Assembly: GCA_023213315.1 (NCBI GenBank)
Contig: JAKCPI010009397.1
Span: 1 to 64,000, forward strand
Direction: 5' to 3'
DNA length: 64,000 bases
DNA from: Euborellia annulipes
Lineage: Eukaryota; Arthropoda; Insecta; Dermaptera; Anisolabididae
A program made the position numbers and the translations under genes. Shown here one piece after another: positions 5,420 through 63,074 of the stretch (within the stretch, counting starts at the first letter, position 1; each line of letters starts with the position of its first letter). Under the pieces are notes generated by a model, which saw only the letters and a program-made list of their open reading frames with translations, did no database searches and was not told the DNA's origin.

Positions 5420-7830
5420 TTATGTAGCTGCCTTAAGTTGAGTTATATTAAGGAAGGTTTTCAGATCCTGGCAATTAAAATTATTCCTGTTTTTAGAGAT
5501 GGTGATGGAGTCAGAAAAATAACAAGACGTTTGCAGTCAAATTTTCTTTTATTATTGCAATAACTTAGTTAAAAAACTGAATACGACGCTTGATGATGGC
5601 TATAGAAATGTAGTTTGTATTGTGTACGTAATAAACCACAATTAATGCCAAAATATCTTTTATTTCAAATATTAACTACCGTGAAATCCTTAATCAATTC
5701 GACAAGAAAAACATTCATTTTTTGTGTTATCACGCCATGGGTCCTTTTTTATGTAAATATTAAGATAATTTATTTAATTAGCCTAATCATAGAGACAAAG
5801 AGCAAAACGTAACCCTTGTATTTATGAATCTAGAGCCTTGACTCTACTCCAAGGAGCACGGGCAACTAAACTGCTATTTATAATTTTACTTTCAAATAGT
5901 TACATAAATAATTCACATATATTAATAGAAGATTGTGCACATTTCAACAGGACAAAATTTTTCAGATGTAGCAAATAAATTTATTTCAAAAAGAAAAAAT
6001 CTGGTGTGACTGGTAGCACAGCGCACAATTTTTATATCCATCGAATTTTTGACATGAATCTAATACTTTCTCCTTTATTATTCCATATATAAGAGAAAGT
6101 AAAAAGTAATTGTCGGGAATAATAAGGAGTAGTAATTATTTAAAATTCTCAGTCTAACAATCATTTGGATCATCTACCTTAAAAATTTAACAACTCTTTA
6201 ATATAATATTTTGGAGACATAAAAAAAAATGTACAAAAAGTGTGAAAATTCCAGTTAAATCTGATCACAGTTCGGAACTAATTGCAAGGCATTGCTTTGG
6301 TGTATGTAATAGAGAGAGAGAGACTAGCGGTCAGGTGAAGTTTTAGATCAGATGAACGGGGAGAAAAGAGAACAACACAACAAGAACAAAAAATGAACTG
6401 AAAATTGACATTTAATGATAAATGAAAAAGATGAGCGGATCAAAGAAGACAATTAAACGGCATTTGTTAAAAAAAAAAATTTAGTATTTGCTAAAAAAAA
6501 AAAAAAAGTTTAAATGTTTTGGCCTCAAACTGTTATTTCAACATTGAAAGTTCAAAGTACACAGACACACACACACACAGTGGTATGCAAATAGTCTGCT
6601 TAAAAACTCCAAGGTCATCAACTTAATATATAAAAAAAAAAGGAGAAAAGCAAATAAAAATTTTCTATGACAGAATTTGAGGGAAAAAAATTGTATATTT
6701 CTCTTTTAGAGGAAAGAATATTTAATTGCTAAAAGAGAGGATTAATTAATAGCACGTTAGGTTAATGTGCCTTTTTTTTGGATGGGTTTTGTTTCGGGTG
6801 TTTTTTTTTTTTTAAGATAAGATAGCAAAGCGCGACGAGATGAAGTCGCGATACAATTGTGACTCTTTTTTTTTACAATTTTACAACAAAGCTGCCCGCT
6901 CCAGTCGTGATGAAAAATGAATTTTGAAACAATAACGTAATTACAATGACAAATTGAGACCAAAAAACTGCGAGATATTTGCCTGATAGAGACACGCCAC
7001 AATGCAGTAGTAATTATCTTCAATATTGTGGAAATTAACTTAAAAGGGAAAAAAAACGAAGATTATTTCTTCCTTATTTTCTAATTTCTCCCAAACGCTT
7101 CTCCCGAAAGACAAGTGAATCGGAACCGAAACGCTGTGTTTATTTAGCATATGAAAAAAAGCTCAGTTCAGTTGCATCACGCACCAAAGGCGTCGTGATG
7201 GCTAAGAGCTTTTTTTTTTTTAATGCACTGAGATTGATAAATTGAATTTCATTCAAAAACAAAAGACACAAGTAACCTATTTCTGACAAATAGATTTAAA
7301 AGAATAAAAGGCATTTGTGTTTGTTTTTTTGTGTCTTTTAATTAATAAAGAATTTCTTTTGATTAACAAACAAAAAAGACTAATTCCCTTCCTATATTTT
7401 ATCTAAATAGATTGCATTTATGAAAATGCTATTGTTTTACAAATAATAACAAATAGTCAAAGAAAAAAAAAAAGTTTAACAAAAAATCGTTTAAAGCTTT
7501 CGCCAAAAAGAGAACGAATAAAATTAATAAAGTATTCCTACTGGCTCATAAATAGATAATCAAACTAAGATTGTAACTAACTGTTTAGGATATGGATTGA
7601 TTCTCAACCTGTGGGGGCTCGTACCCTAGACGGGAAATAATAATAGTAAAAAAATGGGTTGTGAAAATATGAACAAAATAGCAAAATATTCGAAAAAAAA
7701 AAAAAAAAAAAAAAAAAAATTATAATCATTATTGAAAGTAAAAAATAAGACTTGTGGCAGCAGGTCGTATTATTAAGGCGGAGTCAAAAAAAATTAAAAT
7801 ATGCAGTCAAAATTATTTCTTTTAATATGC
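5420..7830. other. AT-rich sequence, no gene seen
   Basis: Includes the small X-box derivative at 6000-6100, a CA run at 6563-6580 and A-runs such as 7691-7720. The same holds for 8450-9670, 10140-10780 and 11110-11480. Confidence 0.5.
6000..6100 (+). mobile_element. X-box repeat with its middle deleted
   Basis: TCTGGTGTGACTGG at the left joins directly to the CGAATTTTTGACATGAAT end block and GAGAAAGT at the right. A 100-bp derivative keeping both termini. Confidence 0.6.
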
Positions 7831-7839
7831 CTTTTGGCT

Positions 7840-7872
7840 GACGTTTCGGCCTCTGATCTAGGCCATCTTCAG
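7840..7872 (-). ncRNA. Solo hammerhead ribozyme motif, intact core
   Basis: On minus: CTGAAGATGGCC, then GGCCGAAACGTC. Stem II GGCC/GGCC closes a loop of about 10 nt, stem III is the palindromic ACGT and cleavage follows GTC. A flanking repeat AAGAAATAATTTTGG is inverted on either side (7812 and 7915), so it may be one arm of a short palindrome. Confidence 0.7.
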
Positions 7873-8244
7873 TGTCGGTGGAGAGAATAAATGAAATTTT
7901 AATTTTCATAAAAGAAATAATTTTGGATGCATGTCTTGGATTTTTTTTTGTTTTTTTTTTAATCCACCTTAAAAAAATTTTAGAGAATTATTTTTAATAA
8001 CCGCGCCTGCGACGGACCGTCGCCTTTTCTTATTATAACCATTTGGTATCCAAATGGCTTAAATAAAATCATCGGACTGCCTGGGATCCGAACCCAATAA
8101 AATTATTATTACTACTATTCCAATCCAGTGCCAGCTTTTATAAAAATATTGAAAACAATATTTTATTTATTTATTATTTATAAATCTTATATTATAAATA
8201 AATAAATATAATTAATATTTACTGAGTAATCTCCTAGGCACGGG

Positions 8245-8442: not shown

Positions 8443-9678
8443 TCGATTGGGAATTGATCTTTCATTGGTTTAAACCTCCTTGGCTGAATCCTCGCAACTC
8501 CAACATAAATACCTAACAACAATTAGTTTTTAATATAATAAATATGACTGAAAGTTGTCATAAGTATTTAGAGCTTACGCAATTCTTTAGTTTATGGAAA
8601 AAAGAAGTCGTAACAATTTTGTGGAAAAATTCACCAGGCATGAGATGACAAGTCTGATGAAAAAAAAAATCATTATATTGATATTACTTCACTCTAATTC
8701 ATGAAGGAAATTTAGATTTACAAAACTAGAGATTTCATTTAGAATAAAAATTCCAATCCGTAAACCAAGCGTATCTTTGATTGGCACAATGAAGCAAAAA
8801 AAAAAAAAAAAAATATTAAATATCCTTAAAAAAAAAAAAAAAGTTAGATTTAAATAAATAAATTAAAAATCACAATCCGTTCAACTAAAATAATTCTCTA
8901 GCTAGTACTTAAATAAGCAAGGGCAAAAGACAAAGCTCTAAATTAAGGGTAGAGGAGGAGGGGGGAGGGGGTGTTTCTTGAAAAGGGCAAGCGAAGGGTG
9001 TCGACGACTTGCTGAGGAATAATAACAGCGACACAATTAGTCAATTTCGATAACACCCTGCCTGCTTGGGATGTCAAGAAAATGTACTTGAATTAATCAA
9101 AACACAATTAATATCCATAAAGGGAGCTCCAAGTTGAATGCATGCATTTCATTTCTATAGGGTAGATAAGCTAAGCGAGTTGGGTTATGCAGTTTAGAAA
9201 TTATAACTAAGATTATAATGAAGGGGTGGGGGGAGATATTTAAAAGAAGTTATTTAAAGAGATAAACTGAGATGAATATTCAGTATTCGAATTAAAAGAA
9301 CGTTCAAAATTAGTCAGTGTATGTGCCAATAATAATACATGCTTTGATTTTCTAGCATCTCTCTAAAAATCTCGGTTTATCTCAAAGAAAAATTGTAATA
9401 AAAAAATCATTGTGTGGTTTTATGAAACCACGATGCAAGTGAAACTTTTTTTCGAATCGTAGGCGTTTAACTGGAAATTTTCAGAAAATTATTCAATTAA
9501 GGGTATTAAATTCACGTTTTTACAAAAGTATTAAAATAAAAATATATATATAGGTGATTAAAATAAAAAATTGAATAATTAAATTTCACAATTATTATCT
9601 TATAATTCATCATATATATTAAATTTCAAATTTCCTATATTTGTTATTTATATGGAGAGAGATAAAATATAAATTACA

Positions 9679-9899
9679 ATGGAAAATTGGAGGTATCAAC
9701 CAAATTGGGATTGTCCAGGTTAATAAAACTCCCAGGATAAGACGTTTCAGCCTGAATTTATTTGGCCATCTTCAGTTATACACATAGTTAATTCCCGATA
9801 ACTGAAGATGGCCAAATAAATTCAGGCCGAAACGTCTTATCCTGGGAGTTTTATTAACCTGGACAATCCCAATTTGGCTGATACCTCCAATTCTCCATT
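9679..9899 (+). mobile_element. Palindromic hammerhead pair
   Basis: Arms of about 100 bp around 9788 with hammerhead motifs at 9741-9775 (minus, core GACGTTTCAG, one base changed) and 9802-9836 (plus, CTGAAGATGGCC, GGCCGAAACGTC; stem II GGCC/GGCC). The outer arms contain GGAGGTATC and its complement. Short centre, so a transcript would fold end to end. Confidence 0.75.
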
Positions 9900-10008
9900 T
9901 ATCACATCACAGCCACAATCTCAAAATCAACTATAAAATATAAATATCGTAGAGTAGTAGGCCTAAAGAAACCTGGCGTGAATGGCCAGTAAAGTCACGG
10001 CTTGTAAC

Positions 10009-13057: not shown

Positions 13058-13589
13058 CAGAGGCGTACCGAGGCAGTTGGGGGCCTGGGGCGGCACTAGA
13101 AGAGGGGGCCTTATATTGAATTTTTTTTTTTTGGGGGGTGCTTATCTTTAAATATCCCTCTCCTCCATACACAAAAATATTTTTAAAATACCGTATATCC
13201 CTGAACCCCAAGGGCCCCGGGGGCCTCTCAAAGAGAAATTTTCATTAAATTTTCTTTTTTTTTATCTAAATTTTTCCGTTTTTACTTGAGCCCTGAGGGC
13301 CCCGGGGCCTCTCAAAGAGAAATTTTCATTAAATTTTCTTTTTTTTATCTAAATTTTTCCGTTTTTACTTGAGCCCTGAGGGCCCCGGGGCCTCTCAAAG
13401 AGAAATTTTCATTAAATTTTCTTTTTTTTATCTAAATTTTTCCGTTTTTACTTGAGCCCTGAGGGCCCCGGGGCCTCTCAAAGAGAAATTTTCATTAAAT
13501 TTTTTTTTTTTATAAATATATGGGGGCCTATGCCGGCTCGGGGCCTGGGGCGGACCGCCCCCCTCGCCCCCCCCCTCGGTACGCCACTG
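13058..13589 (+). mobile_element. hAT MITE with an internal 83-bp tandem repeat
   Basis: Exact 8-bp duplication CTATGGAA (13050-13057, 13590-13597). Ends CAGAGGCGTACCGAGG and CCTCGGTACGCCACTG. Both ends contain GGGGCCTGGGGCGG. Inside, about 3.8 copies of an 83-bp unit run from 13205 to 13510 (GCCTCTCAAAGAG at 13223, 13307, 13390, 13473). Confidence 0.88.
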
Positions 13590-14437: not shown

Positions 14438-16355
14438 TAGGGTCCGACCGAAACAAGATTTTCAGCCGAAACCGAAACCGAATATTCGGCCTCAACCTTA
14501 GTTTCGGCCGAAACCGAAACCGAAACTTGTATTTCCTATAAAAATTTTTTTTAATTTTACCTTTTTTTTTTTTTGAATTTTTTTTTCCTCCCGTGAAAAT
14601 CATTTTACCTTTTTTTAGGGAGACTAAAATTTTTTTTCCCTCAATAGGCCAGTCAATATCGACATTTAAATCGCAAAACGTAAAGTATTCCTGCATTTTT
14701 GGTATGTTATTTGGACCCCTTGGGGGAGTGCGAAACCACATTTTGCAATTAAAAAAAAGTTGTGCTTCCCGCGTAGTACGAGAAAAACTGCGTAATTTTC
14801 GCACTTTTTTCAGTTTTTGCAGTTTAATTCAAAAACTATGGGCTTTTTGACATTTGTTGCTTATAGCATTTTCAAAGTATATTAAATTTGAAACAATTCA
14901 AGTCAATTTGCAGCTCCGTATCTCTAATAGTTTTTGAGATATGATAATTGAAAAATGTACAAGAATTTCACAAATGTTACAATTTTCAGTTTTGCTTATG
15001 TTTAAAGCCGAATATCGGCTTAACCGCCCAAGTTTAGAGAAAAGTTGTGATAAATTGAGTTTTAGCACATTTAATTACCTTTCATTTAAGTGCAGTACGG
15101 GGTCAGTAACCCTTGTAGTTTTCTTGTAATCGTAAAAAAACAAAAATTGCAGTAATAGTCGAGTCAAATTTCACATTAAATTCGCAAACCCCCAAGTAAC
15201 GCTGCATTTTTGGTATGTTATTTTGACCCCTTAGGAGAGTGTGAAACCACATTTTGCAATCAAAAAAAAGTTGTGCTACCTGCATAATACGAGAAAAATT
15301 TCAAAATTTTCGGACATTTTTCAGTTTTTGCTGTTTAAATAAAAAAATATGGGCTTTTGACATTAGTTGTTATCATCATTTTTAAAGTGCATTAAATTTC
15401 AAACAATTGAAGCCAAACCACACCTTCGTAAGTTTAATAGTTTTTGAGATATGATACAATTTCATGTAAGGCTATTTAAAACTTGTATTATTGGAATTTT
15501 TGTTTTTTAAGTTTATAGGAGAACTATAAGAGCTAATGACCCCGTTTTGCGCTTAAATGAAAGGTAATTAAATGTGCTAAAACTCAATTTATCACAACTT
15601 TTCTCTTAGCATGAGCCGTTATGTCGATATTGGGCTTAAAACACAACAGAAATTTTAGAATTTTTAATTTTATTTATGTTTAAAGCCCAATATCGACATA
15701 ACGGCTCATGCTAAGAGAAAAGTTGTGATAAATTGAGTTTTAGCACATTTAATTACCTTTCATTTAAGCGCAAAACGGGGTCATTAGCTCTTATAGTTCT
15801 CCTATAAACTTAAAAAACAAAAATTCCAATAATACAAGTTTTAAATAGCCCTACATGAAATTGTATCATATCTCAAAAACTATTAAACTTACGAAGGTGT
15901 GGTTTGGCTTCAAGTGTTTGAAATTTAATGCACTTTAAAAATGATAATAACAACTAATGTCAAAAGCCCATATTTTTTTAATTAAACTGCAAAAACTGAA
16001 AAATGTCCGAAAATTTTGAAATTTTTCTCGTATTATGCAGGTAGCACAACTTTTTTTTGATTGCAAAATGTGGTTTCACACTCTCCTAAGGGGTCAAAAT
16101 AACATACCAAAAAATGCAGCGTTATTTCGCATTTGCGAATTTAATGTGAAATTTGACTGGACTACAAGTGCAAATTATTTGACCTTTTTTTTTTTTTTTG
16201 CATGCGAGTCTCATCCCATTTTTTCAGACTCTGGTTTCGGCCGGCCGAAAGGTTCGGCCACTTTTTGGCCGAAACCGAAACTACGGCCGAAACCATGATT
16301 TTTGGCCGAAACTGGCCGAAACCGTAACCGAAACCGAATATTCGGTCGGTTCCTA
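14438..16355 (+). mobile_element. hAT MITE, CCGAAAC family, right member of the composite, split by a 1.5 kb insertion
   Basis: Same ends as 12513-12909. Its body is interrupted after CCCTCAA at 14644 by a palindromic element (14645-16164) and resumes at GTGCAAATT. Its left flank is an X-box hairpin repeat cut in GTATTTAG. Confidence 0.85.
14645..16164. mobile_element. 1.5 kb element of three related ~490-bp units, two forming a palindrome; 3-bp duplication
   Basis: Ends TAGGCCAGTCAA and (reversed) TAGTCCAGTCAAA, flanked by CAA on both sides (14642-14644, 16165-16167). Units are 14645-15135 (direct, diverged), about 15150-15660 (direct) and 15665-16160 (inverted and nearly identical to the second). 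Each has TTTTGGTATGTTATTT, CACATTTTGCAATTAA and GTTGTGATAAATTGAGTTTT. Short open frames here (for example starting MQVAQLFFDCKMW on both strands) are mirror images of each other and are not convincing genes. The 3-bp duplication would suit a PIF/Harbinger-type MITE (inference). Confidence 0.65.
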
Positions 16356-17460: not shown

Positions 17461-18122
17461 GCTTTTTCATTTAGAAAAAATTTTCATTAAAAAAATCCCA
17501 ACTATAAGGAGACAAAAACACTTTCGACTCCGTAGACATAGGCAGCACGCATATTAGGAAAGTATCTGTGGAAGTTTTCTCTCAGCCAGGGGTATGACAA
17601 TAATTTAATTTATTTAGAGAAAAGTAGATTTATAGCTGGATGAAAGTTGTTGATAAGTAGCAGGATGAAGAAAAAGAAAAGTACCGAGCATTTATTTCAA
17701 TTATTTAGGAACATTAAGCCAACATTTCGGTCTCTGTCGAGACAATCTTCAGGATTATAACATAGCAAGGATAAGGGCAAATTTTAAAATTACAATGTCA
17801 TTTTAACATGTTAGTATTCATGAGTAATAATATAAAATTTTATATGAAAAAAAAAAAATTATATTTTTTTATAAACTTATGAAAATATACTAACATGTTA
17901 AAATGACATTGTAATTTAAAAAAAAATTTGCCACTATCCTTGCTATGTTTTATGGCTCTGAAGATGGTCTCGATCGAGACAGAAACTTTAGCTTAATGGG
18001 CCTTAAATAAATGAAATAAATGCTAGCTGATTTTCTTTTCTTCATTCTGATATTTTTCAAGAATAATTTATTTAATTGTCGGGGAAAAAACGTAGAATAA
18101 TTCATTATGATAGCTTTTTCTA
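17461..18122 (+). mobile_element. Hammerhead-type palindrome, second copy of a tandem duplication (no insertions)
   Basis: About 660 bp with TCCCAACTATAAGGAG near the left end and inverted inner arms (CATTTTAACATGTTAGTATT and its complement). Degenerate hammerhead motifs are at 17723-17752 (minus) and 17956-17988 (plus, CTGAAGATGGTCTCG, GAGACAGAAAC). It is a near-identical tandem copy of the unit that starts at 12243. It supplies the empty sites for three hAT insertions found in that copy (CTGTCGAG at 17734-17741, and CATGTTAG and GTAATAAT near 17810-17830). Confidence 0.75.
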
Positions 18123-20429: not shown

Positions 20430-21865
20430 TCGGCAGCCCCCCCCCCCCCCCCCGAAATTTTTAATTCTTCTATTTCTTCAAATATTAACATGCTTTTTTG
20501 GATTTAAAATTCTTGAATGAATATCTATCAAGGGATTTAAAAGTTTAAAGATTTTTTGTATAATTGCCCCCCCCCCCCCCCGAAATTTTTAATTCTTCTA
20601 TTTCTTCAAATATTAACATGCTTTTTTGAATTTAAAATTCTTGAATGAATATCTATCAAGGGATTTAAAAGTTTAAATTTTTTTTGTGTAATTGCCCCCC
20701 CCCCCCGAAATTTTTAATTCTTCTATTTCTTCAAATATTAACATGCTTTTTTGGATTTAAAATTCTTGAATGAATATCTATCAAGGGATTTAAAAGTTTA
20801 AATTTTTTTTGTGTAATTGCCCCCCCCCCCCCCGAAATTTTTAATTCTTCTATTTCTTCAAATATTAACATGCTTTTTTGGATTTAAAATTCTTGAATGA
20901 ATATCTATCAAGGGATTTAAAAGTTTAAATTTTTTTTGTGTAATTGCCCCCCCCCCCCCCCGAAATTTTTAATTCTTCTATTTCTTCAAATAAAAACATG
21001 CTTTTTTGGATTTAAAATTCTTGAATGAATATCTATCAAGGGATTTAAAAGTTTAAATTTTTTTTGTGTAATTGCCCCCCCCCCCCCCCCGAAATTTTTA
21101 ATTCTTCTATTTCTTCAACTTCAAATATTAACATGCTTTTTTGGATTTAAAATTCTTGAATGAATATCTATCAAGGGATTTAAAAGTTTACATTTTTTTT
21201 GTGTAATTGCCCCCCCCCCCCCGAAATTTTTAATTCTTCTATTTCTTCAAATATTAACATGCTTTTTTGGATTTAAAATTCTTGAATGAATATCTATCAA
21301 GGGATTTAAAAGTTTAAATATTTTTTGTGTAATTGCCCCCCCCCCCCCCCGAAATTTTTAATTCTTCTATTTCTTCAAATATTAACATGCTTTTTTGGAT
21401 TTAAAATTCTTGAATGAATATCTATCAAGGGATTTAAAAGTTTAAATATTTTTTGTGTAGTTGCCCCCCCCCCCCCCGAAATTTTTTATTCTTCTATTCA
21501 AATAAAAACATGCTTTTTTGGATTTAAAATTCTTGAATGAATATCTATCAAGGGATTTAAAAGTTGAAAGATTTTTTGTGTAATTGCCCCCCCCCCCCCC
21601 GAAATTTTTAATTCTTCTATTTCTTCAAATATTAACATGCTTTTTTGGATTTAAAATTCTTCAATGAATATCTATCAAGGGGTTTAAAAGTTGAAAGATT
21701 TTTTGTGTAATTGCCCCCCACCTCCCGAAATTTTTTAATTGTTCTGTTTCTTCAAATCTTAACATGTTTCTTGGATTTAAAATTCTTGAATGAATATCTA
21801 TCAAGGGGTTTGAAAGTTTAAAGATTTATTGTGCAATTGCCCCACCCCCCGAAATTTTTATTTTA
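20430..21865. repeat. Poly-C satellite, 12 units of about 127 bp
   Basis: Each unit is a C-run of 8-17, then GAAATTTTTAATTCTTC, AACATGCTTTTTTGG, TATCTATCAAGGG and TTTTGTGTAATTG. C-runs begin near 20437, 20566, 20694, 20820, 20947, 21076, 21210, 21336, 21463, 21588, 21713 and 21841. The last two runs are broken by A or T, and divergence rises to the right. The minus strand presents regularly spaced poly-G. Confidence 0.95.
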
Positions 21866-24549: not shown

Positions 24550-24768
24550 TTTAAATTAGAAATGTAAAGTATAAAGCGATACATAATTGTTTTTTATTTG
24601 GTTACTGGAAGATAGGCAACCCAATTAACAAACCCACTAATAGTCTATTGTTTTTAAAAAAAAAGAAGATAATTTCGATTTAGACTACCCTTCTGGCTGA
24701 TTTCCTATCTCTCACATAATTTTGGACTATAAAGAGTCACTTAATGCAACAGAACCGTAGCTCGGTGA
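24550..24768 (+). repeat. 220-bp interspersed repeat, also at 55505-55710
   Basis: Shares GATAGGCA, AACCCACTAATAGTCTATTG, TTTCGATTTAGACTACCC and GTCACTTAATGCAACAGAAC with 55505-55710. In both places a hammerhead arm follows. It contains CTGGCTGATTTCC, the family tail, so it may itself be the end of an older hammerhead element. Confidence 0.65.
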
Positions 24769-25075
24769 GAGACGCAGCTAGAGTTTTTTCATAATTTATT
24801 TAATTCACACAGCTGACGTTTCGGTTTCGTGTTTGAACCATCTTCAGAGGGGGCGAAAATTCATTATGGAAGGCTCCCAGTGGATACATTGTTGAACTAA
24901 ACCTCTATATAATAGATAAATATATACACCAGGTATATAAAAAATTAAAAATCAACTGTGTCACTTTCATAATGACTTTTCGCCATCTCTGAAGATGGTT
25001 CAAACACGGAACCGAAATGTCAGCTGTGTGCATTAAATAAATAAGGAAAAAACTCTAGCTGCGTCTCTCATTTTT
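24769..25075 (+). mobile_element. Palindromic hammerhead pair
   Basis: Inverted arms share GAGAGACGCAGCTAGAG at the outer ends. Motifs lie at 24815-24847 (minus, GACGTTTCGG to CATCTTCAG) and 24989-25021 (plus, CTGAAGATGGTTC, GAACCGAAATGTC). The 220 bp to the left (24550-24768) recurs at 55505-55710, where the matching hammerhead arm is found at 56697-56930, so both belong to a larger repeat. Confidence 0.7.
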
Positions 25076-27399: not shown

Positions 27400-27640
27400 T
27401 TCGGCCCGTATTATTTTAATATTCCATTGTAGACGTTTCGGGGACTAAAGGAAATCCATCTTTATCAGGACAAAGGCGTTAAAAAAATTATTAACTCTGC
27501 TTTCTTCACTGTATTTTAAAATATAGTAATACTTTTAGTTTTTTACTTTGGCAGAGATAAAAAATTTTTAACAACTTTGTACTGAAGATGGATGACATTT
27601 AGTCTCCGAAAAGTCAACAATGCAATTTTTATTTCAACTT
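27400..27640 (+). mobile_element. Palindromic hammerhead pair, degenerate
   Basis: Motif at 27432-27468 on minus has CCGAAACGTC intact but box 1 expanded (CTGATAAAGA). Its partner at 27582-27615 on plus has CTGAAGATGG intact but GAAAAGTC at the cleavage side. Each has lost one box, so neither looks active. Confidence 0.55.
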
Positions 27641-27784
27641 CTAACTGTATTAGGCCTTCCTCTATAACTAGGTATAAGAAAGTAAAAAGACACAATATTT
27701 TCGCCTAAATAAGCAACTAAATGATTGAATAACAAAAGTTATCAAAAAACAATTATGGAATGTAGCTGATTTGTTGAATAGGGA

Positions 27785-28880
27785 AGAGGATGCAGCCAAT
27801 AATTGAGCCGCTATTTAATAATTAAACACTCTAAATAGGAACGTTTCGGCTGAGATCAACACTGCCATCTTCAGCCTTCAAAGAGCATATTCAAATTTTT
27901 ATACAAAAATCTGGTGTGACTGGCGCACAGCACACAACTTTCTCTTACCTTCGGTAATCGAAAGTTGTGTACTGTGCTTGTCACACCAGATTTTTTGTGT
28001 CGACATGTATTTAGTTTCCGACAGTAGAGTACAATTGAATTCAAGATGTAAAATTTATAAGTATGGGAAAATATTTATATTTTGATACCATGGCAACCAT
28101 TTCTCCTATCTTTTCTATGGAGTACAAGAGTAAAGTGGTCTTCAGAAGATTTCAATCACAAAATGAGAATATACATTTTATAGAGAATCTAAAAAATAAT
28201 TGATTTTTGAATTTAAAAAAAAATCGTTTGAGCAAATTTTGAGAAAATCGAAAAAAACTGAAAAAATGAATCAGTAAAGTGCTAGTACTTTTTGGTCGAT
28301 TTTGTTCAAAAGCTTCGTGTCACGTCCCATGGGGGTGCCTAACTTAAATATAAAATTTCAACTTCCTAGCTCTTTTCGTTCTTGAGATATTTTGTTCACA
28401 GACACACACACACACACAGACAGACCATGTCGCGAAAACCACTTTTTTGGATTCAGGGGACCTCAAAACGTGAAGATCCATCAAAATCTCGACATCGAAT
28501 TTTTGACATGAATCCAATACTTTCTCTCTATATATATATTACATATATACATAGGTAAGAGAAAGTAAAATAGAGTTTTTATTAATACAAATTATTTGCA
28601 TTCTTTGTCAGATGAATGGAATTTTCGTGATACAACGAAGTTGAGGCTTATAATGATTGAAAGCACTTGTGGGTATTTTAAAAGAAATTACATTCACTTG
28701 ACAAAGAATGCAAATAATTTTTATTAATAAAAACAACTCTTTTTTTTTTTTTTTGTATAAAAATTTGAATATGCTCTTTGAAGGCTGAAGATAGCAGTGT
28801 TGATCTCAGCCGAAATGTTTCTAATTAAAAGAGTGCTTAATTATTAAATAGCGGCTCAATTATTGGCTGCATCCTCTTCC
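27785..28880 (+). mobile_element. Palindromic hammerhead element carrying an X-box repeat in its loop
   Basis: Outer arms contain GAGGATGCAGCCAATAATTG and the complement near 28870. Motifs are at 27840-27873 (minus) and 28785-28819 (plus, CTGAAGATAGC, GCCGAAATGTTT). The arms continue inward to CAAATTTTTATACA and its complement. The loop then holds a hairpin-ended X-box element (27910-28566) and a small inner palindrome (28568-28740) with ATTTGCATTCTTTGTCA arms. Confidence 0.7.
27910..28566 (+). mobile_element. Hairpin-ended X-box repeat
   Basis: Complete copy with both end structures; the X-box variant is GATACCATGGCAAC at 28084-28097 (one base changed). Confidence 0.75.
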
Positions 28881-28970
28881 CTATTCAAATCAGTCATAAC
28901 CACCTGAGGTCCGAAATGTAAATACATTTCCTCGAAGATCGTCCCTCCTTATTTTAGGAGTGGTATAATA

Positions 28971-30471: not shown

Positions 30472-31224
30472 GTATAATATTTAAAAAAAAAAGAAGTTTT
30501 GAATTGAATTTTTCAATTTCGGGCTTCAATATTTATCAAAGTAAATGTCAAACACCTTTGAAGTAGGTGTTTAAACAAGTTGAAGCCCGCTTGCTATTTC
30601 AAACAAATGTATGTGCCCAGAGAGAGAGAAAAAAAAGGAGAAATACGGCTAAATTAAATTATCAAATGGGCAGCCGACAACGAGAAGAGTTCAAAACGTT
30701 ACGGAATAAATAATACAATGAACTGGCAAGAAATATATATCATCTTATTAGAATTAAAGATTAACAAACGAGAAAAAAGTAAATAAGTTAATAATAACGA
30801 TTAAAATTAATTTTTTTTTGTGAAAGAACCTCTCCATTAGAATTGCATTATCTCTCACCCCCCCCCCTCCCCTATTTCCCCCCTCTCTCTATATTTAGTT
30901 ACGGCTCTAATTTAAAATAATATAATTAATAAATTTTTTATAACAAAATGTCTACGGATGATAAATATATTTCTAAATAAACAAAAAATTGATTATTTTT
31001 GATTTAATAAATAAATAAATAAATAATTTATAATTTATCAGAGATGAGATAAAAAGTGTGTGATATCTTAATATCAGAGTCTTGGTGAAGAAATATTTTT
31101 TTTTATTAAAGGAGGTAGAAACTTCTTCCATATTAATCAAAGCAAAGGGTTGGTCATGTTTTTATATAGTCCTTTTTTTTTATTAATTTTTAATTTATAA
31201 AATAGCTATTAAGAAGGGTATGAA

Positions 31225-31560
31225 AATGCAGGCAGCCAAAAATAAAAAACCCTCTCGATACTCTGCGAACGTTTAGACGTTTCGGGTAAAATTTATTCAC
31301 CCATCTTCAGCTAATTGTTCTAATGAAAGAGTATAATTATACATAAATGACATTGGTTATTCTATAGAATTTTCAAACCTGTATTTATCATCTTATTATC
31401 AAAAGAGAATACATAGAATAAACAATGTTATCTATGTATAATTATACTCTCTCATTAGAACACTTAACTGAGGATGGGTGAATAAATTTTCCCCGAAACG
31501 TCTGAACGTTTACAGAGTATCGAGAGTGTTTTTCATTTTTGTCTGCCTGTATTTTACATA
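31225..31560 (+). mobile_element. Palindromic hammerhead pair
   Basis: Outer inverted ends GCAGGCAGCCAAAAA and TTTTTGTCTGCCTG. Motifs at 31276-31310 (minus, CTGAAGATGGGTG to CCCGAAACGTC) and 31468-31502 (plus, CTGAGGATGGGTG to CCCCGAAACGTC). Both satisfy the CTGANGA rule and both end in GAAACGTC. Stem II pairs GGG with CCC. Confidence 0.75.
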
Positions 31561-36990: not shown

Positions 36991-37167
36991 AATTAATTCA
37001 TATTTATCCAAACTAGAGTTTACTACGCCTCCCTTTAAAAACATTTAATCATGACGACATCCTCCCTTAAAGTAATACAGAGATATTTTTAAATGGTAGG
37101 CCTAATATTGATATTACCTCAAAAAATAAGATTTTTAAATGATGAAGATAGGGGCAGCCTGCTGGAT

Positions 37168-37424
37168 ATTATTGAGAAGGATAAATAAATAAAATCCGGA
37201 GCTGATGATCAGGCAATTTATTTGGATTAATTCCGTCCGCTATAAGTCGACGTTTCGGAGCCAAAACGACTCCTTCTTCAGGACCATGCGGTTGTTTTTT
37301 TTTTGACACCCCATGGTCCTGAAGAAGGAGTCGTTTTGGCTCCAAAGACGTCGACGGAATTAATCCAAATAAATTGCCTGATCATCACCTCCGGATTTTA
37401 TTTATTCATCCTTCTCAATAAAGA
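37168..37424 (+). mobile_element. Palindromic hammerhead pair
   Basis: Long arms with GATCAGGCAATTTATTTGG and its complement. The minus motif at 37249-37281 is textbook: CTGAAGA, stem II GGAG/CTCC, GAAACGTC. The plus partner at 37319-37352 keeps stem II but has AAAGACGTC. Confidence 0.75.
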
Positions 37425-37474
37425 TTTTTAAATTTTTTTAAATATAAATACTAAATAAAATATTAGAGTGAGGT

Positions 37475-37850
37475 AGATGGCTGAGTAGATCTTATTGTAG
37501 TATGGAATAAAGAAAAGGGCAATTACAGCTACGTTTATTTCGTTTATTTGTCACTTCAAGCCGATGTTTCGGAGTGATATATGACCATACTCAGGGCTGA
37601 AGCGTTTCAACAAAATTCCTTAAAAATTGTGTAAATTGTTTCTTGCCATTTAATAAGCGAGTCTGGGTTAGATTCTAACCTAAGCCTTTGGTCCTTATTA
37701 AAAGGCAAGAAAAAATTTTTGAGGAATTTTGTTGACACGCTTCAGCCCTGAGGATGGTCGTATACCAGACAGAAACGACAGCTTGAAGTGACTAATAAAC
37801 GAAATAAACTTAGCTGCAATCGCTCTTTTCTTTATTCCTTACTATAAATA
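37475..37850 (+). mobile_element. Palindromic hammerhead pair
   Basis: Motifs 37563-37594 (minus, CTGAGTATGG to CCGAAACATC) and 37748-37779 (plus, CTGAGGATGG to AGAAACGAC). Outer arms share TATGGAATAAAG and ATTACAGCTA-like segments. The related single motif at 32496-32527 has the same flanks (TTTCGTTTAATAGGCACTTC). Confidence 0.65.
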
Positions 37851-38049
37851 AAATAACTTGTTTAAATCATTGATAATCGTTTTCGCTTGGAAACCATTAA
37901 TTTGTCTACCACAGTTTAAAAACATCTAATGTTAATTTACTAATAAATAAATAAAGTTAAGATTTATTAAAAGAAGAAAAAAATTTCTCAAAAAAGATGA
38001 CAAGAAATGCGCATAGCAATTAATTATTATATATATACATAAAGTTTGT

Positions 38050-39660: not shown

Positions 39661-40015
39661 ATTACCGATTCCATACATATTTTAAATAATGTAATCAAAA
39701 GCAGTCACAGGCACAGGATTTCGTTAAGGGGGGGGGAGGGGGGAGAGAAATTTGTGATCTAGCATCAAAGGATGGGAGTGTAAAGAATAAAAATATGATT
39801 TTGTTGAGAATTCTTAAATCAGGATTAATTAAAAACTTCTAAATGATTGAAATAATAATTATAGTAATGTTTTTTCATCCGAGGGGAGGGGGGAGTGCGG
39901 GGGGCACCGCATCCCTTCCAGGCATCGCTAGAGATCATTAGATGTATATATAAATATTGGACTGCATCCACACTCTTTCATTTTACCGGTATAGCTTTAT
40001 TCGTTATTTATATAT

Positions 40016-40111
40016 CTCTTTCTATCTATTAATTCTACTTTTTTCAATTTTTTTTATTTGTATATACAAATAAAAAAAATTGAAAAAAGTAGAATTAATA
40101 GATAGAAAGAG
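40016..40111. repeat. Spacerless perfect 96-nt palindrome beside the USP48-like donor
   Basis: Two 48-nt arms (40016-40063 and 40064-40111) are exact reverse complements with no spacer. The right arm ends 22 nt from the exon edge at 40134, so a transcript would carry a 48-bp hairpin immediately after the 5' splice site. It is AT-rich and has no relative elsewhere in the window. It could be a recent fold-back duplication or an assembly artefact. Confidence 0.9.
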
Positions 40112-40133
40112 AAAATATGTCGAATGAACTCAC

Positions 40134-41419: not shown

Positions 41420-41740
41420 GGGAAAGGGAGACGTTTCGGACAAAATTTTATTTCTCCATCCTCAGCTCCTCGTTGGCTTATAAACTAATTAGGTACAAAG
41501 TTGTCATTAGTCGTGGCACGAATTTGTGCACATGTATTTTTTATAAAATATACATGTGCAAAAATTCGTGCCTCAACAACAATGAAAACTTTGTACCTAA
41601 ATTAGTTTATAAGCCAACGAGGACTGAGGAGAGACGAATAATTTTGTCCGAAACGTCTCCTTTTAGGCATTTGGCATCCAAAGGTTCTCTTTATTTGCTG
41701 CATCTGTACTTATTCTTTTCCATTCCATAACATCAACAGC
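41420..41740 (+). mobile_element. Palindromic hammerhead pair
   Basis: Motifs 41430-41465 (minus: CTGAGGATGGAG, TCCGAAACGTC) and 41624-41656 (plus: CTGAGGAGAGACG, GTCCGAAACGTC). The inner arms contain TGTGCACATGTATTTT and complement. A single arm of a sister copy with the same internal sequence is at 51340-51540. Confidence 0.7.
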
Positions 41741-45269: not shown

Positions 45270-45942
45270 CAAGGGCGGATACAAGGGGAGGGTGGGGGTA
45301 AAGGGAATAATTACCCCCCCCTGAGATTTAAAAAAATACTTTTTTCAAAAAAAAAAATGTATTTTTAATGTAAAATTTTAAAAATTAATATTTCAATTTA
45401 TTAACAAACCAGGGCCGACGTTTCGGTCACGTATGGGACCATCTTCAGGGCCAGGTTAATGTCTGAAAATACATATAACCCTTGCCAAGTTATATTGGGC
45501 ATTCACAATTATACGTAAATTAATCATGATCATGCCTCAATGAATGAATCATTCACTCTCTGTACATGGTATGACAATAATAAAATTTGAGGCATGATCA
45601 TGATTAATTTACGTATCATTGTGAATGCCCAATATAACTTGGCATTAACATTAACCTGGTCCTGAAGATGGTCCCATACGTGACCGAAACGTCGGCCCTG
45701 GTTTGTTAATAAATTGAAATATAACTAGCTGCTTGTTATTTATTCTTTATTTGATTATCAACACTCAGCTATATACCTCCTTCAAAAAAATTAATACTTA
45801 AAAATTTGATTTATATTTATATTCTGGCAAACAAGTACAGAATGCGCCTTTAAATTACCGAAATTAAGAAAAAAATGTGTGCTGTGTGACCAGTCACTCC
45901 AGATTACCCCCCCCCCGAGAAACACCTCTGGATCCGCCACTG
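45270..45942 (+). mobile_element. hAT MITE, GGCGGAT family, interrupted by a hammerhead element
   Basis: Ends CAAGGGCGGATACAAGGGG and CTCTGGATCCGCCACTG; flanks AGCCCATA and AGTCCATA agree at 7 of 8 positions. Poly-C blocks near both ends. Insert at 45391-45785. Confidence 0.78.
45391..45785 (+). mobile_element. Palindromic hammerhead element inserted in a hAT MITE, 11-bp target duplication
   Basis: AAAAATTAATA occurs at 45380-45390 and 45786-45796, and the hAT copy at 48045-48310 shows the uninterrupted site. Hammerheads are at 45417-45448 (minus) and 45663-45694 (plus). The core is CTGAAGA, stem II GGTC/GACC closing an 8-nt loop, then GAAACGTC. Stem I pairs AACC with GGTT and GG with CC around a mismatch. 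After the right arm comes a single-sided tail with TAGCTGCTTG, as in sister copies. Confidence 0.85.
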
Positions 45943-51982: not shown

Positions 51983-52545
51983 GGACCCTGTTACGCATTA
52001 GTGTGTCAAGCGCCAGCTACCGAGTTTTGAGAAAATTAACATTAAAGTTTTTTGTTTTCATTGGATTATATATAATTTTTTTTGTCAATTGTGCAAGTAA
52101 CATTAAATATAATCAGACAAAAAATTCAATCAATTTTTATCTAATTTTATTACGATCGCCGACGTTTCGGACGCAAATCGTGCCCTTCCTCAGGACAATC
52201 GATGGTTAATGAAATACAGATGGACGGAATGGATGGAAAAAATACGTCCATCTGTATTTCATTAACCATCGATTGTCCTGATGAAGGGCGCGATTTGCGT
52301 CGAAACGTCGGCGATCGTAATAAAATTAGATAAAAATTGATTGAATTTTTTGTCTGATTTCTTTCCTGGCTGCCATCCTACTCATATCTTCTAATAGTTC
52401 AGCCATCTCAATATTATTAAATATAATTTTTTTTAGGACATATTTCATAAAAAATACTATTAATTATAGCATTTGAAACAATATCCGTGCTTAACTCAAT
52501 TTTTAATTTTTTTGGCGCTTGACACACTGATGCATAACAGGGTCC
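51983..52545. mobile_element. GGACCC-family MITE, interrupted by a hammerhead element
   Basis: Same ends as 42811-43060 with ATTT on both sides (51979-51982, 52546-52549). The hammerhead palindrome 52112-52416 interrupts it. Located 100 bp upstream of the acceptor of the 51883 exon. Confidence 0.85.
52112..52416 (+). mobile_element. Palindromic hammerhead element inserted in a MITE, 10-bp target duplication
   Basis: ATTAAATATA is duplicated at 52102-52111 and 52417-52426, and the insert-free sequence is seen in the MITE copy at 42811-43060. The inverted arms carry hammerheads at 52161-52193 (minus, CTGAGGA) and 52278-52309 (plus, CTGATGA), each ending GAAACGTC. Stem II and an 8-bp stem I (CGATTGTC with GGCGATCG, two G-U wobbles) can form. 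A tail of about 60 nt containing CTGGCTGCCATCC follows only the right arm, so the element is directional. It lies in the 2.9 kb USP48-like intron. Confidence 0.85.
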
Positions 52546-55730: not shown

Positions 55731-56696
55731 GGAAGAATATGTATATATGTAATATATATGAGAGAGAAAGTATTGGATTCATGTCAAAAATTCGATGTCG
55801 AGATTTTGATGGATCTTCACGTTTTGAGGTCCCCTGAATCCAAAAAAGTGGTTTTCGCGACATGGTCTGTCTGTGTGTGTGTGGGTGTGTGGGTGTGTGG
55901 GTGGGTGTGTGTGTTCAATTTTAAGCATGAAGGAATTGAGCTATGAGGTTGAAATTTTATATTTAAGTTAAACACCCCCGGGACCGGGAAAATAAGCTTT
56001 TAATCAAAATCGGCCAAAGAGTACTAGTACTTTACTGATGTACTTTTTCAGTTTTTTTCGATTTTCTCAAAATTTGCTCCAACGATTTTTTTTAAAATTC
56101 AAAAATCAATTATTTTTTAGATGCTCTTTCAAATGTATATTCTCATTTTGCAATTGAAATCTTCTGAAGACCACTTTACTCTTGTATTTCATAGGGAAGA
56201 TAGGAGAAATGGTTGCCATGGTAACAAAATATAAATATTTTCCCATACTTATAAATTTTACATCTGAATTTAAATGTTCCGTACTGTCATGTCGGGAACT
56301 AAATATATGTCGACACAAAAAATCTGGTGTGACTGGCGCACAGCACACAACTTTCTCTTACCTTCGGTAATCGAAAGTTGTGTTCTGTGCTTGTACTAGC
56401 GTACTCTTTGGCCGATTTTGATTAAAAGCTTATTTTTCCGGTCCCGGGGGGTGTTTAACTTAAATATAAAATTTCAACCTCGTAGCTCAATTCCTTCATG
56501 CTTAAAATTGAACACAGACACACCCACCCACACACCCACACACACACAGACAGACCATGTCGCGAAAACCACTTTTTTGGATTCAGGGGACCTCAAAACG
56601 TGAAGATCCATCAAAATCTCGACATCGAATTTTTGACATGAATCCAATACTTTCTCTCTCTATATATATTACATATATACATAGGTAAGAGAAAGT
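55731..56696. mobile_element. Head-to-head pair of X-box repeats: truncated minus copy fused to a partial plus copy
   Basis: 55731-56395 is a minus copy (X-box GTTGCCATGGTAAC at 56212-56225) that stops inside its terminal hairpin. 56399-56696 is the 3' half of a plus copy. The pair interrupts the 24550-25075-type repeat. Confidence 0.72.
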
Positions 56697-59192: not shown

Positions 59193-60360
59193 GTATAGAA
59201 GTATTAATTTTTTTTTTTCACACAAGCTGTCTGACTGTTCAAATTTAATATTTTTAATAAATATAAAAAAACAAAAGAAACAGGTGTCTTTGGAATAGTT
59301 CTTTTTTTTCATCAAATTAACGATAAGATTTTTTTTTTTAAACATAATGTGAGAAATTGGTGAAATTATGAATTTATCTTGTAATCTGGTGCGTACATTT
59401 TCTCCCCCTCTCTGCGCTTATCTCTCCCTATCTTTCTATATATTAAGAAGAGGAGAAAAAAAAACAACACATCTTTATACAAATGGTCAGGAGGGATGGA
59501 TATTTTGACTACTACAAATGTCTTGCCATTTTTCCTTATTAAATTAACAAGAACACTGGAACTAATTTGACATGTGTAAGTTTTTTTATATATCTATTCA
59601 AAATTATATATAAAAAAAAGTAAAAAAATGCTTTAATATAGGCAAGGCCAACCAATCAGAAAATCCTTTAAAGATAAATTTAAATATGAAAATTTGCGAG
59701 TAAGGGGGTGGCATGGAGCAAAGGGGAAGGAAACGCATCTAAAACAGTCACCTGAAATAATACCGGCCACGTCCCTCACCAATTCTATTAATTTCAATTT
59801 TTTTTTTGAAAATAGGCCTGACTCTCAACACCCACACAAGCACATTGCCACACACATTCTATAAAAACTCATCGTATTAAATTTATTTTAATTAATTAAA
59901 AGTGAGTAAAGCCACCCGGATATAATATAACTTTCTCGTACCTCCGGTATTCGAAAGTTGTGTACTGTGCTATTACACGTGCCGCGAAATTTAGGGCTGG
60001 TTTCTTCAAATAAAAAAAAAAAGATTGTGTCGCACAGTGGACATAGTCGTATACGTATGTATCCACACAAAAAATAAAACTAAGTCCAAAGGGACACATT
60101 TTCTGTGACAGTTTCACATGTATGGATTGGAACTCCTTTTCCGACAAAAAAAGACAGGATTTTTATTCGCATCGCCTTCGACAACTCTGGCATCACAAGT
60201 AGGCTTCTTTCCAGAAAGGAGTCCTATAAAGGCAACACTTCTAAAATAAAGACAAATTTCTGGAGATCATAGAATTGTGATCTTTGTTAATGAGATAACA
60301 AAAGTTTTAATCAGGATCCGAAGGAACTTTGCAGCCAGGATTAAATAAAAAAATATTTTA

Positions 60361-61028
60361 AGATGTCCATGGGAGAAGTGGCTGTTTAACGATTAGAATA
60401 ATAGCAGGGAAAAGAGGATGTCAGCCAAAAAGAGAGCCTCTAATCAAATAAACATCTCAATTCAGAAGACGTTTCGGTTTTAATTAAATAAAGCCATCAT
60501 CAGTTCTTATGAGCTGAAACGAGCATAAATAATAATTATAATACAACATAAAAAAAGAAAAAATATTATGTATATATGTTCCATGAGACAACGTTCCAGA
60601 ACATTCTTGTCTGTGTTAAATAAATAAATAAATAAAAATATCTCAATGGTGTAGGTGTATACCTTGAGATTGCCAATATTATAAGATCTGATGTTTTTTA
60701 TAATTTAAAAAAAATAATAAATAAGTCCTACAGCAAGTGGACGAAACATTGTCTGGGGTCAAATAAAGTTTTGTTTTAAAAAACTTTTTGACTTTAATTG
60801 AACCTACTGGTCCGAATCCTTTTGGAAATTGAAAAGAAGGTTCCTGAGCTTCATCAAATTTAAAAAAAAATATTTTTATGTTGTATTATAATTATTTATG
60901 TTCGTTTCATCTCATAAGAACTGATCATGGCTTTATTTAATTAAAACCGAAACGTCTTCTGAATTGAGATTTTTATTTGATAGAGGCTCTCCTTTTGGCT
61001 GACATCCTCTTTTCCTGACTATTATTCT
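60361..61028 (+). mobile_element. Palindromic hammerhead element with an exact 14-bp target duplication
   Basis: AAAAAAATATTTTA is present at both 60347-60360 and 61029-61042, bracketing a 668-bp insert. The ends are inverted (AGAATAATAGCAGGGAAAAG versus its complement near 61010). Hammerhead motifs lie at 60468-60503 (minus; CTGATGA, stem II GGCTTT with AAAACC wobble pairing, GAAACGTC) and 60921-60956 (plus; box 1 degenerate CTGATCA). For the minus motif, stem I has AGAA/TTCT, an internal loop, and CTCA/TGAG, the layout that allows loop-loop contact in active type I hammerheads. Confidence 0.8.
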
Positions 61029-61047
61029 AAAAAAATATTTTATTTTA

Positions 61048-61522
61048 GTTTGAATGCTAGGCTGGGATGAGTAGAGTAAAGGGGTTGGAGAGAATAACCA
61101 GCAAATTTGTAGCTCCACCTGACGTCCTTTATTTGGCAGATATTTCGATGCGTAGAACACACATCATCTTCAGTGCCGCGAGGAATAGTAGGTGGGCTTA
61201 GTCTATTAATATCAAATGCCTTAGGGGCGTTAAACATAGTGGTGAGGTGCCTTCTCTAAGCTGATGACCGCTCTGTGTCCATAGCAGAATTGATTCTGCT
61301 ATGGATTCTGCTATGGACACAGAGCGGTCATTAGCTTAGAGAAGGCACCTCACCACTATGTTTAACGCCCCTAAGGCATTTGATATTAATAGACTAAGCC
61401 CACCTACTATATCCTCGCGGCACTGAAGATGATGTGTGTTCTACGCATCGAAATATCTGCCAAATAAAAGGACGTCAGGTGGAGCTACAAATTTGCTGGT
61501 TATTTCTCTCCAACCCCTTTAT
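61048..61522 (+). mobile_element. Palindromic hammerhead element with an exact 11-bp target duplication
   Basis: ATTTTATTTTA occurs at 61037-61047 and 61523-61533. The insert is an almost perfect palindrome of about 220-bp arms around a short centre near 61290 (a CTGCTATGGA repeat). Hammerhead-like motifs at 61139-61173 (minus) and 61423-61457 (plus) read CTGAAGATGATG, then CATCGAAATATC. Stem II pairs GATG with CATC. The stem III/cleavage segment is ATATC instead of ACGTC, still a palindromic A-T-A-T stem III ending in a permissible UC. Confidence 0.8.
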
Positions 61523-61994
61523 ATTTTATTTTATTTTTTATTCGCCGACGTTTCGGTCGCCAATCATGAACTTCATCAGGGCAAATATTATTAACTATAC
61601 TCGATCTTAGGTATTTAATGATCAGTGAATCAGATAGCCCAATAAAAAAGAAATTGTATATGATTGCAATAGACATTAAAATACAAAAAATCTTGTATAT
61701 AGTTAACAAAATTTGCCCTGACGAAAGTCGTGATTGGCGACCGAAACGTCGGCGAATAAAAATATTTTGATTTAATCTCCTGGATTCAAAGTCTTCGGAT
61801 CCTAATCAAATTGATAAATTTTAATTTCTATCTTGTTGTTGTTTGTTAGTAGGCTTGAATATATATATTTTTTTAAAGAAGAATAATGTCTGTTTTTAAG
61901 CAAGGGGTGTGTTTACTTATTCGATGTCAAAAGGGAAGTTGATAATAGAAATTCGATTAGGTTTCAGCGAGAAGGAGGCGGAGGAGGTTGTGCT

Positions 61995-62400: not shown

Positions 62401-63074
62401 CTTATAGAAATAATCAGATTGTTCACATTTTGTTCGTTTTTGGAAAAACTTCTTAAAACAAAAGATGAAGGCCATTTATTAATGCATACAATTATTAGAA
62501 GAAAATTAAAAACAAAATTAATTTTAAATTAACTTTTTTTTTAGTTTTCTAAATAACCAAGAAGTTTGTAAAACCAAAAATTTGGACTTTATCGCATTGT
62601 CAATCAGGAATAATAAAAAATCGGACTAGCCACAACACATTTAAATCAAAAATTCACTAGATGGTCAACATAGGCTATTGAAAATTATTTGAATCTGAAT
62701 GAACATGATTTTCAAATTTCCATTTTATTTCATTTACTAGCCGCGCCGCCCGCCTTCGGCGGGCTCCGCGTCTAGCCAGGGGGGCTTCGCCCCCCTGGAT
62801 CCCCCACCAGCTGGCTCGGGCCCGCCTGCGGCGGACCCTCGCCTTTTCTTATGAGAAACGGGCTGGCTACGCCCCCCTGGACCCCCCGCCAGCTGGCTCG
62901 GGCCCGCCTGCGGCGGACCCTCGCCTTTCTTAATTATGAGAAACGGGCTGGCGTCTAGACAGGAGGGCTACGCCCCCCTGGACCCCCCATCAGCTGGCTC
63001 GGGCCCGCCTGCGGCGGACCCTCGCCTTTTCTTAATTATGAAAAGAAAATTATTATTACTAACAACTAAGTATT

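Follow-up and report, generated by a model that had tools for sequence, protein, structure and literature searches.

Most of the hammerhead motifs in the window (the whole 64-kb stretch of DNA analysed here) very probably lie in the inverted pseudo-LTR (pLTR) arms of short, ORF-less insertions of Penelope-like elements (PLEs) that carry minimal type I hammerhead ribozymes. The motifs were mainly arranged in twos: 28 of 40 window sites formed 14 head-to-head pairs, a layout that had gone unnoticed in the original prediction of a dense motif population. It is the anatomy of these inverted pairs that identifies the element as a PLE.

Number and fold of the hammerhead sites

All 11 sites that had been named as the best examples were present. 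The copy given as 45663 starts at 45662, and seven of the 11, whose strand had not been stated, lie on the minus strand. The strict motif CTGANGA-N6-30-CGAAACGTC occurred 15 times in the window and not once in any of 50 dinucleotide shuffles. The combination of CTGANGA and GAAACGTC, with one mismatch permitted, was found at 29 window sites as against 0-1 in 10 shuffles. In the whole 903-Mb assembly the strict motif gave 46,860 matches (one per ~19 kb), compared with 10 (3+7) for the pattern read backwards. A loose search for CTGANGA...GAAA also matched shuffled sequence (mean: 5.64, versus 41 observed in the window), as would be expected if the sites were chance matches in AT-rich DNA. The strict counts in the window and in the genome refute that reading, which we regard as practically impossible.

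The Rfam hammerhead models, suggested as a check in the original prediction, missed every window site. At the gathering cut-off the window gave no Rfam match, and so no hammerhead, and none of the 46 matches at E<=5 was a hammerhead. Some of these 46 bore microRNA names; they overlap palindromes and were therefore not accepted as genes. In our view the Rfam hammerhead models miss the sites because they expect stem III. As no cut-off tried gave a hammerhead, we built our own covariance model from sites on other contigs. It comprised stems I and II with four pairs each and was trained on 25 of 42 rows, all from outside the window, the other 17 being near-duplicates, repeats between overlapping loci and three rows with weak stems or cores.

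This purpose-built model found 40 window sites at E<0.01, including all 11 named ones, and 50 at E<=1. The first figure agrees with the predicted total of about 40 and with the predicted density of roughly one site per 1.6 kb. The density is real, but it is less striking than had been supposed, since thousands of minimal hammerheads per animal genome are already in print (PMC7761336). On two other contigs (C2 and C3), of which 100 kb each were sampled, the model gave 34 matches at E<0.01 in 200 kb, some of which were training sites; the window, with 40 in 64 kb, is thus denser in hammerheads than these contigs. By the strict motif it is also richer than the genome at large.

It had further been claimed that pairing is kept while the stem letters differ, and this was borne out. 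Compensatory changes were found in both stems I and II, and the covariation scores of window and outside sites alike were far above those of controls in which the 3' partners were slid by 1-3 columns. For the 25 outside sites, 79.5% of the cells pair and the covariation score was 0.573 (<=0.173 with slid partners), a score favoured by the removal of three training rows with weak stems or cores (C2_24271, C3_54719 and C3_74180). The corresponding window values, from 49 distinct rows of 50 matches, were 81.4% and 0.611 (<=0.162 with slid partners) and lean toward the covariance model, to which these rows were aligned. We also examined the first four positions of stem I by a fitting-free procedure, in which 56 of 60 sites were retained (loop of 15-24 nt; 49 once repeats were removed). 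Pairing in the 49 non-redundant sites was 0.76, compared with a mean of 0.40 and a maximum of 0.52 after shuffling of partners.

The sites have the type I core CUGANGA...GAAA...UH with pairing stems I and II. Their architecture nevertheless departs from the motif as first described, quite apart from the head-to-head pairing. In the model alignment GTC follows GAAAC directly, which leaves no intramolecular stem III. Between CTGANGA and stem II the sites have one base more than the usual core, and this base was A or T in 46 of 49 sites. The extra nucleotide of a viroid hammerhead is said to sit at this same position. The occurrence of an extra nucleotide in a viroid hammerhead core has been published (reference cited in PMC6155905), and PLE hammerhead variants without stem III have been reported that may act as dimers (PMC7761336). 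Taken together, the covariation supports the assignment of the window sites as putative minimal type I hammerhead ribozymes.

Layout and insertion marks of the pairs

The spacer between the two hammerheads was below 500 bp in 13 of the 14 window pairs and 894 bp in pair M, and most pairs are contained in palindromes. Among the 40 matches, neighbours less than 300 bp apart were oriented -+ in 12 cases, +- in four, -- in one and ++ in none. Head-to-head pairing is weaker outside the window and is not universal: on C2 and C3, 10 of the 34 model matches were in head-to-head pairs with less than 300 bp between them (12 with one overlapping pair). Genome-wide, at a spacing of 110-140 nt, we found 2,287 head-to-head matches (1,137+1,150; control: 0) and 497 direct matches (245+252; control: 0). 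The chance expectation at this spacing is up to ~356 matches of either kind, an upper figure because the estimate includes real sites. Because a pair is counted on each strand when both its hammerheads are intact, the distinct head-to-head pairs number 1,150-2,287, chance included.

These orientations bear on metazoan retrozymes, which are small, tandemly repeated elements that contain type I hammerheads and propagate via circular RNA, and which the original prediction had named beside PLEs. The type I hammerheads, the non-coding sequence and the high copy number would suit retrozymes, and so would the 497 direct matches and the three successive direct pair matches in steps of 153-162 nt at C739:67093-67567, where the arrangement is unlike the usual head-to-head layout. 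However, direct pairs reached only ~1.4 times the chance level at the single spacing tested, where head-to-head pairs prevail, and among close neighbours in the window just one was a direct (--) pair. Stem III is absent, and the ends and target-site duplications (TSDs) described below are PLE-like. We consider a retrozyme origin very unlikely.

Eight window pairs (A, B, D, G, J, K, N and O) were insertions of 258-667 bp between repeats of 11-15 bp with an A+T content of at least 92% (Table 1). TSDs at AT-rich sites, as expected of PLEs, were thus present in eight of the 14 pairs. The distances from hammerhead to repeat were unequal in these eight, with differences of 28-66 nt, so that the pairs have the PLE form of inverted head-to-head pLTRs with a tail on one. 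When the first 11 window pairs were examined mechanically, six had a repeat of at least 11 bp, compared with 7.7% of 2,648 random placements. The mechanical search gave a 14-mer as the longest repeat of B, and this is not the assigned TSD.

Table 1. Paired and single hammerhead-bearing elements of the window, with their hammerheads and TSDs
Feature	Position	Strand	Remarks
J, head-to-head PLE pLTR pair	60361..61027	.	TSD TAAAAAAATATTTTA (15 bp) at 60346-60360 + 61028-61042
J hammerhead, left (long) arm	60468..60503	-	42.6 bits
J hammerhead, right (short) arm	60921..60956	+	34.4 bits; CTGATCA core, one mismatch
N, decayed head-to-head pair, adjoins J	61048..61520	.	TSD ATATTTTATTTTA at 61035-61047 + 61521-61533
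N hammerheads	61131-61181(-), 61415-61465(+)		25.8 bits
C hammerhead, left arm, apparently interrupted by J + N	61547..61579	-	42.8 bits
C hammerhead, right arm	61718..61750	+	46.0 bits
B, head-to-head pair	52114..52415	.	TSD ATTAAATATAAT at 52102-52113 + 52416-52427
B hammerhead, left (short) arm	52161..52193	-	44.1 bits
B hammerhead, right (long) arm	52278..52309	+	31.1 bits
B stem-loop TGGCTG/CAGCCA ahead of long end	52367..52405	+	
A, head-to-head pair	45391..45785	.	TSD AAAAATTAATA at 45380-45390 + 45786-45796; hammerheads 45417-45448(-), 45662-45693(+)
D, head-to-head pair	9675..9932	.	TSD ATAAAATATAAAT at 9662-9674 + 9933-9945; hammerheads 9741-9775(-), 9802-9836(+)
G, head-to-head pair	37141..37420	.	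TSD AAGATTTTTAAAT at 37128-37140 + 37421-37433
G hammerheads	37249-37281(-); within 37311-37360(+)		plus-strand copy decayed
K, head-to-head pair	37463..37844	.	TSD TAAATAAAATA at 37452-37462 + 37845-37855
K hammerheads	within 37555-37602(-) + 37740-37787(+)		decayed
O, head-to-head pair	17617..18063	.	TSD TAATTTATTTA at 17606-17616 + 18064-18074
O hammerheads	within 17713-17760(-) + 17950-17997(+)		decayed
F, head-to-head pair	31219..31560	.	ends not readable; hammerheads 31276-31310(-), 31468-31502(+)
E, head-to-head pair	24766..25070	.	TSD not found; hammerheads 24815-24847(-), 24989-25021(+)
H, head-to-head pair	41423..41664	.	no convincing TSD; hammerheads 41430-41465(-), 41624-41657(+)
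I, decayed head-to-head pair	27418..27629	.	ends not readable; hammerheads 27432-27468(-), 27582-27615(+)
M, pair 894 nt apart	27774..28888	.	TSD not found; hammerheads within 27832-27882(-), 28777-28827(+)
Decayed copy of L066/L067 family	7752..7949	-	hammerhead 7840-7872(-), 46.2 bits; 74% to L066 264-396

The interval 60468-61750, to which the original prediction was attached, contains the pairs J, N and C. In the last of these the left arm ends at N and seemingly resumes to the left of J, where a stretch (~60302-60360) matches family-C copies on contig C3 with 84-87% identity over 45-62 bases. J and N have therefore most likely landed in C, giving a putative nest in which N sits at the edge of the duplication made by J.

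Family B allowed the ends to be compared across the genome. Its 35 loci (L029-L063) represent 24 elements after omission of second views (L035, L036, L038, L039, L041, L042 and L043), of L058, whose flanks are the same as those of L048 and which we took as a second copy of that locus, and of L061, L062 and L063, which each had a single, long arm in the stretch examined. A repeat of at least 10 bp was present at the ends of 16 of the 24 elements, compared with 12 of 552 mismatched end pairs. Each of the 24 distinct two-armed copies had one arm whose end lay no further than query position 166 and one that reached position 179 or beyond. Because similarity to a query with a single long arm decided the ranking, short-short copies could be missed and long-long copies would not. 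The long end of the window copy, placed by its TSD, is at query position 179. On the strand opposite the hammerhead, a short coding-looking frame runs inward from this long end (52310-52415; MMAELLEDMSRMAARKEIRQ in related copies, by eye).

Beyond the family-B set, 12 of 20 pairs were readable and all 12 were long-short, the window copy of B being counted in both sets. On other sampled contigs, four of six further pairs were readable by eye and likewise long-short (4/4); one of the four was without a TSD and one had just a T-run. Ends were not readable in C, E, F, H, I and M in the window and in two outside pairs. Pair M may have a tail on both arms and would then be a possible exception to the long-short rule.

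Nine of 12 long arms end 10-20 nt past a short perfect stem, mostly TGGCTG...CAGCCA, which varies in step between families (TAGCTG/CAGCTA in A, GCCTG/CAGGC in G). A criterion that was fixed once this result was known gave the stem in eight of 12 long arms, compared with a shuffle mean of 0.87 (maximum: 4). For this analysis, ends were placed by eye in the C3 pairs 32627, 56918 and 60078 (arm ends) and in F and L007 (long ends). D, G, J and C3:64092, like the usual family-B copies, have their short end inside the stem loop; A and the window copy of B have it ahead of the stem. Every arm resembles the 3' portion of a PLE pLTR and, read outward, consists of upstream sequence, the hammerhead, some 30-60 nt, usually a stem-loop, and the end.

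Short, palindromic, non-coding insertions with flanking duplications could also be MITE-like DNA transposons that carry the motif in their terminal inverted repeats by accident. We find this hardly credible: the two ends are unequal, the window TSDs are 11-15 bp long and variable, the ribozyme stems covary across families, and the arms match a PLE.

The window contains other repeats as well. A perfect 98-bp palindrome (40015-40112) is without a hammerhead, and there is no hammerhead match within a ~1 kb palindrome (15144-16176, 95.6%) or a 297-bp inverted repeat (55738-56030 with 56393-56683, 95.3%). A tandem array at 20440-21850 has 11 copies of a 128-bp unit beginning with a C run. Tandem repeats of 83 bp (13211-13513; 3.6 copies, 98%) and 82 bp (62783-62952; two copies) are G+C-rich in parts.

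A probable coding Penelope-like source

No frame longer than 141 aa was found in the window; the window copies are ORF-less, and none is a complete (autonomous) PLE with an RT + GIY-YIG ORF inside the element. A search of the genome for GIY-YIG gave at least 118 matches (150 scored of 710 candidates). Among the matches listed, nine contigs had minus-then-plus matches within 6 kb (C4577, C4726, C5102, C5672, C8739, C10122, C13254, C15649 and C18298), and coding copies are therefore often head-to-head too. Same-strand twos occurred on C14340 and, with a further match, on C13254.

C13254 has an 822-aa frame with RVT_1 (364-551) and GIY-YIG (722-761), and a hammerhead (L066 264-296; 51.3 bits) lies ~180 nt upstream of it. 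The arms of the pair at C3:64014-64370 (C3:64092/64262), which has a 12-bp TSD, were 90.8% identical to L066 261-412 and 88.4% identical to L066 261-381, and they end ~30 nt apart in L066. This comparison, made for a single pLTR family, ties its arms closely to sequence that lies upstream of an ORF encoding RT and a C-terminal GIY-YIG. A hammerhead upstream of an RT + GIY-YIG ORF, matching the arms of a pair, fits the PLE carrier named in the original prediction. The PLE assignment of the RT is based on the domain matches RVT_1 and GIY-YIG; a PDB search with the PLE protein gave nothing at E<=0.01.

Two of the three PLE upstream regions examined contained a plus-strand hammerhead (L066, and L065 with 28.6 bits). 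In the third, L064 (801 bp), there was no sense-strand hammerhead better than E=0.2. A weak 12-bit hammerhead-like match at L064:126-182(-), near an 825-aa GIY-YIG frame, has six extra bases between GAAAC and GTC and is perhaps a version with a stem III loop.

Proposed insertion mechanism and probable role of the ribozyme

Minimal hammerheads of Penelope-like elements were reportedly described by Cervera and De la Pena in 2014 and by Lunse et al. in 2017. These ribozymes and their large copy numbers in animals are known already (PMC7761336, PMC6155905), and the published ones resemble ours in the type I core without stem III, the thousands of dispersed animal copies and the location in PLE pLTRs. 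In our case, however, 28 of 40 window copies are head-to-head, many with TSDs. Earlier work has likewise described pLTRs in inverted orientation, short TSDs and a tail that may or may not be present (PMC3846280, PMC8969392). Penelope of Adineta vaga (PMC3846280) shares the inverted head-to-head pLTRs and the GIY-YIG + RT ORF, with TSDs of 8-10 bp and an optional 31-bp tail on one inverted pLTR. Its pLTRs are described as mostly around ORFs and of low copy number, with a mention of a few unrelated sequences bounded by pLTRs, whereas the pairs in the window have no ORF and the motif is highly abundant here. In open-licence PubMed Central texts we found none on ORF-less head-to-head hammerhead pairs or on a strict long-short rule.

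Poseidon of Anolis carolinensis (PAc; PMC11167929) is also alike in its hammerhead near the ORF start and its AT-rich target. Reverse transcription of PAc begins in an AC-rich stem-loop, with the optional tail between two start sites, and the end stems in the window resemble this. The PAc ORF starts at stem II, whereas the L066 frame opens well after the hammerhead. Both target strands of PAc insertions are cut and extended, as in the mechanism that we propose here. At an AT-rich site the PLE RT/endonuclease would make cuts in both strands, ~12 nt from each other, and each target strand would prime reverse transcription of PLE RNA. The two start points would be some 20-60 nt apart, one strand being primed from the distal and the other from the proximal start. 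With their 5' ends brought together at the centre, the short cDNAs would then form a palindrome flanked by the TSD. The unequal arm ends favour double priming, a step that we think moderately likely, and the presence of one long and one short arm in all readable pairs suggests that it is coordinated.

Alternatively, the inverted arms could result from snap-back, that is, from self-priming of one PLE cDNA or antisense RNA, as proposed for Penelope in PMC3846280; the ribozyme and the PLE identity would be unchanged. The existence of nearly spacer-free pairs (D) agrees with snap-back. Sister arms had minority alleles in common in 56 of 142 cases, compared with 11.9 expected (22 of the 24 family-B elements; L059 and L060 were omitted, as their short arms are truncated). 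These shared rare variants probably point to one RNA source for both arms and fit double priming and snap-back alike. If the first arm were copied to its end, however, snap-back would predict long-long pairs, and each resolved pair is unequal. Moreover, some arms differ in their inner ends (L059, L060). We judge snap-back to be a rather unlikely origin of the arms.

Double priming could follow a strict rule, by which one strand always uses the distal and the other the proximal start, so that new head-to-head insertions are invariably long-short. We put this forward tentatively, as a rule somewhat more apt to fail than to hold. PAc reverse transcription in vitro starts alike on both strands (PMC11167929), and from this equality a long-short pair would not be predicted.

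The ribozyme most likely serves in the processing of long PLE transcripts, which it would cut between the pLTR and the RT-start stem-loop or ORF. It would work as a dimer in which the conserved ACGT pairs between two copies and replaces stem III, as dimer behaviour has been reported for PLE hammerheads (PMC7761336), and cleavage may be helped by the PLE protein. Cleavage by the PAc ribozyme required protein and was unneeded for insertion in vitro (PMC11167929). In the small paired copies the ribozyme is probably a passenger, because the arms cross its cut site (24 of 24 long arms in family B) and hence would have been copied from uncut RNA, which agrees with PAc insertion without cleavage. Variation in family B was 1.5% in the ribozyme core (15 columns) and 2.4% in the rest of the arm, a difference too small to prove selection within the family and one that fits passenger status.

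As presented in PMC3846280 and PMC11167929, the insertion mode of PLEs and the reason for their hammerhead are unsettled. Many short insertions of this genome are still readable at their two ends, in the duplicated target and in the ribozyme, so competing insertion models become testable by counting. We suggest inverted pLTR pairs as the origin of part of the 'dispersed' hammerheads of animals. For annotation, it matters that every window site of this hammerhead class escapes the Rfam models. If the strict rule were true, the ribozyme-marked pairs, of which a single spacing already gives about a thousand or more, would serve as a fossil record for telling coordinated priming apart from snap-back and from independent priming.
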